A stretch of 45,787 nt of DNA from Methanocalculaceae archaeon. GTDB lineage: Archaea; Halobacteriota; Methanomicrobia; Methanomicrobiales; Methanocorpusculaceae. Within the stretch, counting starts at the first letter, position 1, and each line of letters opens with the position of its first letter. Made by a program: the position numbers and the translations under genes. Below, in pieces: positions 4,880 to 10,070 of this stretch. The stretch lies in contig JAISHD010000021.1 in NCBI GenBank assembly GCA_031262705.1, positions 1-45,787 of the forward strand, in the 5' to 3' direction. The notes below the pieces were generated by a model. It saw nothing but the letters and a program-made list of their open reading frames with translations, ran no database searches and was not told the DNA's origin.

Positions 4880-5830
4880 TTAAAACACTTCACAGCCTTC
4901 ATCCGACGGAAGCGACAGCTCCTCACCGGTATATGCATTCACCTCAACAATATCCTTCTTCCCGCGAACCTGCCACACGGGAACATACACCTTCTCAACA
5001 GTTACCTCAATATTATCCGATGAGGGACGGAACTCCTTTTCCTCCGCAAAAATCGCATCTCCCGAGGTCGTCTTAATCCGCACACGCTTCGTCAGCTTCT
5101 GCATCAGATCCGCACGAACCCGCTCCTCTGTCTCCGCCTTCGTATTCACCGGATTCATTACATCCGCATCCGCAGGAATCGAACCCGGAACCGGAGACAC
5201 ATCTCCGAAATCAGCCTCAAGACCATTGATCGCATTCACCCATCCCGAACCCTCATCATCAAAACTCACCATCTTCCCTTTATAACTCGCCTCACCACGG
5301 CTCGTATACCGGTAATACCAGTACGGAATCATACGAAGCACCGTCGACCCCTCCTGATGTGCAATCCGCACCGCATCGCGATCCGTAATCCGGATAGGCA
5401 ACAGCTGATCACCAGCAGCACCCGAAAAAGGTGAAGAAGAAACACCCATACCCGCAGGGGCATAAGAAACAGTTGCCGGCTCATCCAGATCAAACGGCTC
5501 GGAATAAATCCGTGCCATCGCAGCAGCTGCAATATATCCCTCCAGCTGCTCACGCGACCAGATATACGCCTCCTTCGGACGGAAATAAGCATTACCCGTA
5601 AAAATCAGCTTATCGCACCGGACCTTCGTATCCTCAAGCATTATTGTATACGGTGTCATATCGAACCGTTGAAGAAGATTCAGATCATCCGAACACAGAA
5701 CAATAAGACACTTCCTTCCCCGGACAGCCGAGAGAGTAAACGGCCCCTGCTCCTCCTCGGTATCATAGCCGGCTGTTTCAAGAACGCGGCGTATCTCAAT
5801 AACAGCATTTACGTGTACAAGTTCACCCAT
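4880..5830 (-). CDS. Unknown conserved protein, coupled to the flavin disulfide reductase
   Basis: I do not recognise this 316-residue protein by name. It looks soluble. The N-terminal half has an alternating beta/alpha pattern, including KCLIVLCSDD after a region starting MGELVHVNAVIEIRRVL, which resembles a nuclease- or Rossmann-like core. The C-terminal tail contains VYVPVWQVRG and VNAYTGEE, reminiscent of PepSY-type strands. The frame is open to 5944. I chose ATG 5830 because the protein-like sequence begins there and a TATA-like AAGTATTTTTG lies about 35-45 bases upstream. ATG 5851 is also possible. The stop TAA touches the ATG of the oxidoreductase, so a shared task is likely but its nature is not shown. 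Confidence 0.7.
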   Translation of the reverse strand: MGELVHVNAVIEIRRVLETAGYDTEEEQGPFTLSAVRGRKCLIVLCSDDLNLLQRFDMTPYTIMLEDTKVRCDKLIFTGNAYFRPKEAYIWSREQLEGYIAAAAMARIYSEPFDLDEPATVSYAPAGMGVSSSPFSGAAGDQLLPIRITDRDAVRIAHQEGSTVLRMIPYWYYRYTSRGEASYKGKMVSFDDEGSGWVNAINGLEADFGDVSPVPGSIPADADVMNPVNTKAETEERVRADLMQKLTKRVRIKTTSGDAIFAEEKEFRPSSDNIEVTVEKVYVPVWQVRGKKDIVEVNAYTGEELSLPSDEGCEVF

Positions 5831-6025
5831 ACTTATGTAACTACTATGCATTTCGTGGTCAAAAATACTTTGCAAACCGAAGACGGCCATTGATTCGTTT
5901 ATTGGTGTTTTTCGGTTCGCTCTTTGTCTAACATCACACCACATCTGCCAAGTCCATCGTCACGAATTTGCGACCCGTTTTTCCAGAAATATATCCTTTC
6001 GCCCTGTACGGATTGATCGCTAAGC

Positions 6026-7548: not shown

Positions 7549-8289
7549 TTACAGCAGACTCACCGCTGAAATCCGCTTGTGGGAACTTTTATTCACCAGC
7601 ACAAGAACCTGCTCCTCAAGAGCATTCTGCGGCACAAACTCATGTTCTTCCAGACTTATCAGCGCAGCATCAAGCTCCTGATACGAAAATCCCAATTCTT
7701 CCTCATCGCTCTGACCCTCCCAGAATCCGGCACTCGGCGCCTTCTCAATAATGGACCGCGGAATACCAAGCTCCTCGGCAACCGCATACACATCCTTCTT
7801 CCACAGATGCAGAAGCGGCTGAATATCCGCCGCGGAATCCCCCCACTTCGTACTGTAGCCGATCATATACTCGGTTTTATTGGATGTCCCGCACACCAGA
7901 CAGTTCCGGGCCGCCGCAATATTATAGAGCGTCGCCATCCGCAGACGTGCCGTGTAGTTCCCGCGAAGCACCGGACTGTCCGTCAGATACGGATCAGCAA
8001 ACGCCGCAGCAACAACACCGTCCAGCGGAATCGTAAGTAACTCAACACCGAACCTGCCACAAAGCTCCTCGGCATCCGCACGGTCCAAAGGACTGCCTGA
8101 CGCAGACGGCAGATGTACCCCTAGCACATGTTCGGGTCCCAGAGCCTTTACAGCGACCACAGCGGCAACCGCCGAATCAATACCGCCGGAGATTCCGACA
8201 ACAACACCTTTTGCACCCGACGCCCACAGGGTCTGGCGGATCAGATCTTTTATGCGGGTGACGGCACACCCGATATCCTTACAGAGCAT
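7549..8289 (-). CDS. nadE: NH3-dependent NAD(+) synthetase
   Basis: NadE adenylates deamido-NAD and replaces the adenylate with ammonia to make NAD. The 246-residue protein carries the N-type PP-loop SGGIDS (residues 34-39) followed by AVAAVVAVKALG, and the family blocks GNYTARLRM, GTSNKTE and GYSTKWGD. It has no glutaminase domain, so ammonia is the nitrogen donor. I placed the start at ATG 8289, which overlaps the upstream gene by 11 bases and gives the usual length. The frame is open for 12 more codons upstream. Confidence 0.95.
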   Translation of the reverse strand: MLCKDIGCAVTRIKDLIRQTLWASGAKGVVVGISGGIDSAVAAVVAVKALGPEHVLGVHLPSASGSPLDRADAEELCGRFGVELLTIPLDGVVAAAFADPYLTDSPVLRGNYTARLRMATLYNIAAARNCLVCGTSNKTEYMIGYSTKWGDSAADIQPLLHLWKKDVYAVAEELGIPRSIIEKAPSAGFWEGQSDEEELGFSYQELDAALISLEEHEFVPQNALEEQVLVLVNKSSHKRISAVSLL

Positions 8290-8872
8290 GATTGGTTCTC
8301 TCCAGATACAGTGGGGGCAGGGCATCCCGGACCTGCATCAGTGCATAGGCCGCCGAAGGATGATCCGCCGAGAAATGGTTTAGGAACGCACAGACATCCG
8401 CGGCAAACGGGTCGGGAACAAAAGGACCCGCGTCCTCTCCCTCCCATCCGTGGTGACGGGCATACAGTACAACCTCATTCCGGGGAACGACGGCCAGCGG
8501 ATCAAGCAGTTTTCCTTTGGGGGGAACAAGCACCTCCGCCGCCGTTCCCGCGACGATCTGCTGCAGAAACGCGCAGGCAGAGGAGTCAAGCGTCACCGCC
8601 GAGACAATCGCGGTCGCATCCGCGGGAGCCTGCACAAACGATACATCGCGGCGGCCTGCAAGAATTTCCGCAAGGAGGGCAACGAGTGCAAACGACTCCG
8701 GACCGGAGGAGTTCTGCACATACAGCCGTTCACCGGATGCAATACCGCCGCACTTCCGGATCCGCCGTTTTGACTTCGCCTCCAGATCGCGTGCCGCATG
8801 CACTGGGCAGAGCGCCACACCCGAATAGGGCTGAACGATAACCGCATCCTTCCCGCACCGCGAACACTGCAT
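8279..8872 (-). CDS. Degenerate TtuA/Ncs6-like protein lacking the PP-loop motif
   Basis: The 197-residue protein has the layout of the TtuA/Ncs6 (TIGR00269-like) tRNA thiolases. It opens with a zinc site C3-x2-C6 ... C22-x2-H25 in the typical context QPYSG, and has a basic linker ending KCGGI. Near its end is the block LLDPLAVVPRNEVVLYARHHGWE, matching the family's PLR-x-P-x-KEV-x-LYA region. The ATP-binding SGGKDS is replaced by SSGPES at about 55-60. The protein is about 100 residues shorter than active members, with the middle compressed and the C-terminal zinc finger missing. It is therefore unlikely to activate tRNA, and may bind tRNA or a partner instead. It overlaps nadE by 11 bases. 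The family assignment is my reading of motifs. Confidence 0.6.
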   Translation of the reverse strand: MQCSRCGKDAVIVQPYSGVALCPVHAARDLEAKSKRRIRKCGGIASGERLYVQNSSGPESFALVALLAEILAGRRDVSFVQAPADATAIVSAVTLDSSACAFLQQIVAGTAAEVLVPPKGKLLDPLAVVPRNEVVLYARHHGWEGEDAGPFVPDPFAADVCAFLNHFSADHPSAAYALMQVRDALPPLYLERTNHAL

Positions 8873-8970
8873 ATACTACTCAGTTGGCGTTCGGCGGATA
8901 TGTAGATTCGTTCTCCGACGCCCTCGGACGATGTTGCGCCGGCGTCGTCCATAAAGTCCTGAGATCCACA

Positions 8971-9087
8971 GAAAACACTGAACACACTGAAAGAAAAAAA
9001 CATCATGGAACATACGTGAACAACACGGAAATAATGCATTGAATGGAAATTCCGTCATATTTTTTCTTCTGTGTGTTCTGTGTTTTC
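8971..9087. repeat. Long inverted repeat built from CACAGA-type units
   Basis: The left arm (8971-9010) has three near-copies of CACTGAA/CACAGAA at a 9-base period, then an A-run and CATCATGGAA. The right arm (9050-9087) is its reverse complement with few changes. About 40 bases separate the arms. A related single copy lies at 19458-19513. Neither arm is coding. The repeat lies between the TtuA-like gene and rio2, upstream of both. Confidence 0.65.
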
Positions 9088-9200
9088 CCGCGAAGCGGCG
9101 AGTACGGCTCTGCCGTGCGAATCGTGGGATGCCCAGGAACAAAGGTGCAACACCCCCCCGGACATGATACTTTTATCCCTGCAAAGTCAACCAGTATCTC
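9088..9200. other. rio2 upstream region
   Basis: It contains two tiny hairpins (CCGC-GAA-GCGG at 9088-9098 and ACGGC-TCT-GCCGT at 9103-9115). A TATA-like GATACTTTTATCC near 9167-9179 is placed about 27 bases before the rio2 ATG, suggesting a leaderless rio2 transcript. Confidence 0.4.
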
Positions 9201-10070
9201 ATGCCTCTGTCAGCCGATGACATCAAAAACCTCCATAAATATGAAGTCCGTATCCTTCGCGCACTGGAGAGGATGATGCACCGCTACGCCTGGGTCCCCG
9301 AAGACGACCTCAAAGCCGCGGTCCACCTCTCGGCAGCAGAGACCAAATACCGCGTCGGCAACCTCATTCACCGCGACATGGTCAGATCCGACGCCGTCCC
9401 CTACAAAGGATACGCACTCGTCTTCAAAGGATACGACGCCCTCGCACTCTCCGCCCTTGCGCAGAAAAAAACCATATCGGCACTCGGCACCATGATCGGC
9501 GTCGGCAAGGAATCAGAGATCTACGAAGCACTCGGATTCGGTGTGGTTGTATTAAAACTGCACAAAATCGGTCAGAGATCCTTCCAGACCGTCCGCACCA
9601 ACCGTGAGTACATGCCGGAAAAAACCCACTGCCCCTGGATATTTGCCTCCGCAAAATCCGCCGAACGCGAGTATGAAGCACTCAAAGCCCTCAACGGAAA
9701 AGTAAACGTCCCGGTCCCCATCGACATAAACCGGCACGTAATCGTCATGTCCTTCATCCCCGGTGTAAACCTGCACCGGTGCAGACTCGAAAACCCGGAC
9801 GATATCTGGCAGGATATCCTCTCTCAGATAAAATCCGCATACGACTGCGGATTCATCCACGGCGACCTCTCCGAGTACAACATCATGTATGACGATGCAA
9901 CCGTCTGGATCATCGACTGGCCGCAGTGGATTCCCCCGAATCACCAGAACGCAGAAACAGTCCTGCATCACGACATCGAAACCGTCGCCGCATTCTTTGC
10001 AAAAAAATACCAGCGGGAGTATGACACTGATGACGCAATCCGGTATGTCACCGGCAGGACGGTGGAATGA
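9201..10070 (+). CDS. rio2: RIO-type protein kinase Rio2
   Basis: Rio2 is an atypical kinase/ATPase that matures the small ribosomal subunit. The 289-residue protein has the Rio2-specific N-terminal winged helix (1-85). It then has a nucleotide loop IGVGKESEIYEA (about 99-110), the ATP-contacting K119, the catalytic loop HGDLSEYN (H220, D222, N227) and the metal-binding D239 in IDWPQ. All key residues are present, so it should be active. The stop overlaps the start of the DUF460 gene by 4 bases (ATGA), so the two are translated together. Confidence 0.95.
   Translation: MPLSADDIKNLHKYEVRILRALERMMHRYAWVPEDDLKAAVHLSAAETKYRVGNLIHRDMVRSDAVPYKGYALVFKGYDALALSALAQKKTISALGTMIGVGKESEIYEALGFGVVVLKLHKIGQRSFQTVRTNREYMPEKTHCPWIFASAKSAEREYEALKALNGKVNVPVPIDINRHVIVMSFIPGVNLHRCRLENPDDIWQDILSQIKSAYDCGFIHGDLSEYNIMYDDATVWIIDWPQWIPPNHQNAETVLHHDIETVAAFFAKKYQREYDTDDAIRYVTGRTVE

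Follow-up and report, generated by a model that had tools for sequence, protein, structure and literature searches.

The closest described systems for the gene considered here are the archaeal thiolase NcsA and its eukaryotic counterparts, Ncs6/Ncs2. The NcsA of Methanococcus maripaludis (MmNcsA) is a dimer, and its zinc domains have been proposed to clamp the anticodon loop (PMC10067955). Human Ctu2, which has no Fe-S cysteines but keeps the zinc sites, has been modelled as the second half of an NcsA-like dimer, with a proposed role in orienting the tRNA (PMC10067955); the yeast protein, Ncs2, remains essential for thiolation although its own enzymatic activity is lost (PMC10450187). The retention of a dead paralogue beside an active one is also described for the trypanosomatid prozymes of AdoMetDC and deoxyhypusine synthase (PMC5201418, PMC3663545). 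In the literature searched, whose scope left out most subscription papers, archaeal NcsA figures as a single enzyme, and no description of a dead archaeal NcsA was found.

The window analyzed here, a stretch of 45,787 nucleotides, belongs to a Methanocorpusculum MAG that is 79% complete and has M. petauri as its nearest named relative (83% identical). An uninterrupted 197-aa frame on the reverse strand (hereinafter gene A) encodes a well-folded, catalytically dead protein of the NcsA family that is under selection, rather than debris. The features of the locus are as follows; residue numbers refer to the product of gene A, and copy B is the second, intact NcsA discussed below.

8279-8872, reverse strand: gene A, dead NcsA orthologue, 197 aa (Pfam/NCBIfam, PDB profile, AlphaFold2 and Foldseek, dN/dS)
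8798-8869, reverse strand: N-terminal zinc knuckle, residues 2-25, with C3, C6, C22 and H25 (Pfam TtuA_LIM_N; conservation)
8819-8833, reverse strand: QPYSG, residues 14-18, an ancestral NcsA signature that stays in dead A and is mostly gone in B (conservation)
8753-8806, reverse strand: basic helix alpha-1, residues 23-40, including K35 and R39, which are found in dead A and not in B (DSSP of the AlphaFold2 model; conservation)
8693-8710, reverse strand: degenerate PP-loop SSGPES, residues 55-60, canonically SGGKDS (alignment)
8645-8653, reverse strand: R74 and D76, which are conserved in A as in most other NcsA but mostly gone in B (conservation)
8612-8632, reverse strand: approximate site, around residues 81-87, of the deletion of the segment from DEGI to the Fe-S motif CxxCGVLRR (alignment with full-length A and intermediate copies of the sister genus g2)
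8576-8593, reverse strand: TLDSSA, residues 94-99, what is left of the NLDDEA motif (alignment)
8459-8500, reverse strand: PLAVVPRNEVVLYA block, residues 125-138 (alignment; no variation at P125 and E133 among 59 dead copies)
8339-8362, reverse strand: HPSAAYAL block, residues 171-178 (alignment; conservation)
7549-8289, reverse strand: nadE, NAD synthase, downstream of A in the same direction (Pfam NAD_synthase, 9.4e-69; start by homology)
9201-10070, forward strand: RIO2 kinase gene, divergent neighbour and order-wide positional anchor of A (Pfam RIO1 and Rio2_N; synteny)

The four zinc ligands of the NcsA/Ncs6 N-terminus are all in place in gene A, and Pfam TtuA_LIM_N matches residues 2-25 above its gathering score (E 2.6e-9). 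The preliminary description had recognized this site together with a PLxxVPxxEVVLYA block of the tRNA thiolase family, which corresponds to the PLAVVPRNEVVLYA block, and had noted that SGGKDS is replaced by SSGPES, that the middle is short and that the last zinc finger is missing. All of this holds: in the alignment, both the lysine and the aspartate of the PP-loop are substituted, the DEGI motif is absent, none of the three Fe-S cysteines of CxxC and CPY remains (the CxxC segment is deleted and the CPY cysteine is substituted), and there is no C-terminal zinc ribbon (CxxC...CxxC). With the PP-loop and the Fe-S cysteines lost, the protein is predicted to be catalytically dead, in line with the earlier claim that it would be incapable of the usual adenylation chemistry.

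Comparison of profiles and structures, which the same description had set as the test that could disprove a relation, places gene A within the NcsA/TtuA fold. A profile of dead homologues retrieves the MmNcsA structure 6scy with an E-value of 3.2e-28; the AlphaFold2 model, built from an alignment of 59 dead homologues, has a mean pLDDT of 95 and a pTM of 0.89, and its closest solved fold in a Foldseek search is, again, 6scy (TM 0.81, E 1.5e-10). Since 6scy outranks the TtuA structures in both searches, identification of gene A as TtuA was rejected. Nor is gene A a chance frame, given this profile match and the orthologues with intact frames throughout the genus. The curated models are less helpful for naming: gene A scores 39.7 bits (E 3.1e-10) against NCBIfam NcsA (NF047749), far below the cut-off of 500 bits of a model tuned to haloarchaeal-type NcsA, and its C-terminal half matches TIGR00269 (E 1.7e-4) far under the curated cut-off. 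The intact NcsA copies of the order also miss the NF047749 cut-off, with ~200 of 500 bits, so that neither A nor B can be named by it. Pfam CTU2 gave no match at E 0.01 in any of the 59 dead copies.

Thus, gene A shares with MmNcsA the fold, the zinc knuckle, QxYSG, K35, R39 and the PxxxIPxxEVxxYA and HP blocks, and its position is orthologous to that of the intact NcsA of the order, but it has neither PP-loop nor Fe-S cysteines nor C-terminal zinc ribbon and is 197 rather than ~300 aa long. With the U54 thiolase TtuA (5mko, 5b4e), it has in common a related fold and a LIM-like N-terminus; it is more distant from TtuA than from NcsA in both profile and fold score, and lacks the catalytic residues.

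In all six Methanomicrobiales families sampled, A diverges from the RIO2 gene, usually at a distance of ~50 bp and often with nadE downstream. The gene at 8279-8872 sits at this position, where many genomes of the order have an intact NcsA. Many genomes also possess, elsewhere, an intact, diverged NcsA, copy B. A tree of the intact copies places A in one clade with a support of 1.0 next to B, the monophyly of which is weak (0.45), with A and B jointly supported at 0.993 within euryarchaeal NcsA. The proposed check for a full-length Ncs6 in the same genome turned up a copy on another contig (C21) that has SGGKDS, DEGI and CSVC; it is truncated by the contig end and complete in sister genomes. 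From the RIO2-linked position and the tree, it follows that this enzyme is the diverged copy B and that gene A is the one that has inherited the position of the ancestral NcsA. Accordingly, the earlier designation of gene A as a paralogue stands as far as membership in the NcsA family is concerned, but is incomplete: gene A, having lost catalysis, is orthologous to the ancestral Methanomicrobiales NcsA, a U34 tRNA thiolase, and it is the full-length enzyme that is the diverged copy.

Such loss occurred repeatedly. The 140 A copies that were read divide into 39 live and 101 dead ones, and no family is without dead copies. Of the dead copies, 97 have all zinc ligands, and the remaining four are fragments or have cut ends. 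As for the other features, 12 dead copies still have the PP-loop lysine and 4 the PP-loop aspartate, all three Fe-S cysteines survive in 13, and 14 have a C-terminal ribbon. Reconstruction on a species tree built from a single gene, RIO2, yields 12 (Fitch) to 18 (irreversible) inactivations, with live and dead A coexisting inside the genera g5, g6, g10 and g11. Early stages, in which A is otherwise near-intact, are represented by the PP-loops SGSKDS (G073), SGSKGS (G079) and SGDGDS (G051), middle stages by copies of 236-247 aa in the sister genus g2, and in Methanocorpusculum both the Fe-S segment and the C-terminal ribbon are gone. In one sub-clade of g5 (L205, L201, L202, L204 and L173, genomes G082-G085), A is 234-235 aa long, with the Fe-S segment cleanly deleted and the C-terminal part well preserved; one of these genomes, G084, has two such copies. 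A live A (L058, genome G046) carries an insertion of ~95 aa, including a tandem repeat, between the halves of the C-terminal zinc ribbon.

The state of A is tied to B. Among 108 genomes at least 90% complete (many of the genomes overall are fragmented MAGs), A is dead in 69 of the 76 that have B and live in 30 of the 32 that do not (Fisher p ~1e-17, phylogeny ignored). The exceptions are seven genomes with live A and B and, the other way, two genomes with dead A in which B was not found, both fragmented MAGs (G049, G085). In four of the seven, B was read, and there its N-terminal module is already mostly lost; this early loss beside a live A speaks against the division of labor proposed below, as B may work by itself or on a different tRNA. 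In the same set, B is present and A not found in a single genome (G135; two contigs, 96% complete), from which the usual RIO2 is missing as well, suggesting a missing block. Thus, dead A is almost always kept, whereas B disappears without trace: in many genomes with only A, no trace of B was seen.

The residues lost by the two copies tend to be complementary. We compared 79 positions at which both live A and the NcsA of other euryarchaea are conserved. At 34 of these, essentially the active site, the residue is gone in dead A and present in B; at seven (Q14, Y16, S17, K35, I38, R39 and P203, with two more partly so) it is gone in B and present in dead A, and nearly all of these belong to the N-terminal module of zinc knuckle and helix. 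Mean retention in this module is 0.87 in dead A and 0.53 in B, as against 0.42 and 0.84, respectively, at the remaining positions. The direction of loss differs between the modules with a Fisher p of 0.002, for a module boundary chosen post hoc, after the data were seen; position by position, reciprocal loss is a weak, suggestive association (Fisher p = 0.065). At 11 signature positions, the mean number of matches is 10.5 in live A, 10.1 in dead A, 10.4 in other non-halobacterial NcsA and 2.6 in B; the choice of positions was based on the contrast between A and B, so that the agreement with the outgroup alone is informative. As the full NcsA framework and the active site are both retained in B, where these signature residues are missing, the fold as such probably does not require them. 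This pattern of retained residues sharpens the earlier suggestion of a tRNA-binding or regulatory role for A, which appears plausible.

Orthologues of A of 181-197 aa are found across the whole genus Methanocorpusculum, with identity down to ~38%. The conservation check that had been recommended gave, in this genus, median pairwise dN/dS values (Nei-Gojobori) of 0.17 (A), 0.13 (B) and 0.08 (nadE), in the same genome pairs where available; outside the genus, the value is 0.28 for dead A and 0.17 for live A. The dN/dS of A stays well below 1 over dS values up to ~1. Together with the order-wide retention and the confident fold, these values led us to reject a reading of A as debris or a pseudogene, as the preliminary description had anticipated.

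A milder form of the same idea is that B has made A redundant and that A is a relic in slow decay. It could appeal to the stepwise loss of motifs and the shortening across lineages, to the somewhat raised dN/dS outside Methanocorpusculum and to a frameshifted copy in a single-contig genome (L141, genome G134), where A lies in two frames of 118 and 217 aa, which is either a frameshifted pseudogene or a sequencing error. Against it speak the low dN/dS, the open frames and full zinc site in nearly all dead copies, the fact that the same residues outlast all of the independent inactivations, and the confident AlphaFold2 fold; for Methanocorpusculum, selection, frames, residues and fold already refute it, and for the order as a whole we consider it improbable. 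Maintenance of the frame as a translational-coupling leader for nadE, to which the overlap of the two genes in this clade might point, is hardly credible: selection acts at the amino-acid level, the spacing between A and nadE lies anywhere between -11 and +161 bp, and for many A copies, live as well as dead, no nadE was seen within the flank read; with both spacing and adjacency variable, this reading was rejected. Very improbable, too, is some other catalytic activity, one independent of the PP-loop and the Fe-S cluster. Some conserved polar residues are left for it (R39, R74, D76, E133 and H171), but the same residues are conserved in ordinary NcsA, no alternative site is apparent, and the dead copies differ freely from one another at the ATP-binding and cluster positions.

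We propose, instead, that the functions of the ancestral NcsA homodimer have been divided between the two copies: B would perform adenylation and sulphur transfer, A would supply the module of zinc knuckle and basic helix that positions the tRNA, and the two would pair, most likely as a heterodimer with A as the non-catalytic partner, like eukaryotic Ncs6/Ncs2 (Ctu1/Ctu2). We give this division of labor a probability of roughly one half. The further suggestion of many parallel origins of a two-subunit U34 tRNA thiolase in Methanomicrobiales, with B contributing the chemistry and A the N-terminal tRNA-handling residues, is offered tentatively, at somewhat less than even odds. The competing possibility, rather unlikely in our judgment but deserving serious attention, is that A is functional and non-catalytic independently of B, its zinc knuckle and basic helix binding tRNA or another partner in a function that pre-existed in live A. 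Where B is absent, live A conserves the N-terminal signature to the same degree, so that the module may serve the tRNA itself or any partner, and this partner need not be B. However, A dies almost only alongside B, which catalytic redundancy alone could also explain, and the same module is lost in B, which points to one job shared by both copies.

If functions are indeed divided between A and B, the Ncs6/Ncs2 split of eukaryotes would have been repeated in archaea, with a small natural series of intermediates. Like Ncs2/Ctu2, A derives from NcsA, has lost the catalytic and Fe-S residues and is accompanied by an intact paralogue in the genome; of the zinc sites, it keeps the N-terminal one and has lost the C-terminal one. 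Unlike them, it probably had separate, repeated origins within a single archaeal order, is much smaller, and has B as no more than a putative partner. The prozymes of AdoMetDC and deoxyhypusine synthase are alike in the principle of a dead paralogue beside an active one, but the enzymes are unrelated. Every stage of inactivation is preserved within this one order, which would be a case of repeated, directional subfunctionalisation of an enzyme, and gene A, a naturally minimal, confidently folded, putative dead subunit, makes the role of such subunits directly testable.

The overlap of gene A with nadE, pointed out in the preliminary description, does exist, but amounts to 11 bp rather than 47 bp: the nadE frame opens at 8325, and homologues put its start at MLCKDIGC (8289), so that a heavy overlap was rejected. 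That nadE is itself a PP-loop enzyme is incidental to its place beside A, which it was found to adjoin in only part of Methanomicrobiales. Nearby, a 354-aa frame (4880-5944, reverse strand) has only a weak resemblance to PepSY near its C-terminus (E 0.0039, not reaching the cut-off). On the other side of A, the gap to RIO2 (8873-9200) measures 329 bp, compared to ~95 bp in the closest relatives, and contains a 28-bp inverted repeat (8971-8998 and 9060-9087, 86% complementary). A stretch of 89 bp of this gap is found again on another contig (C56) with 88% identity, and the insert is possibly a small non-autonomous mobile element.
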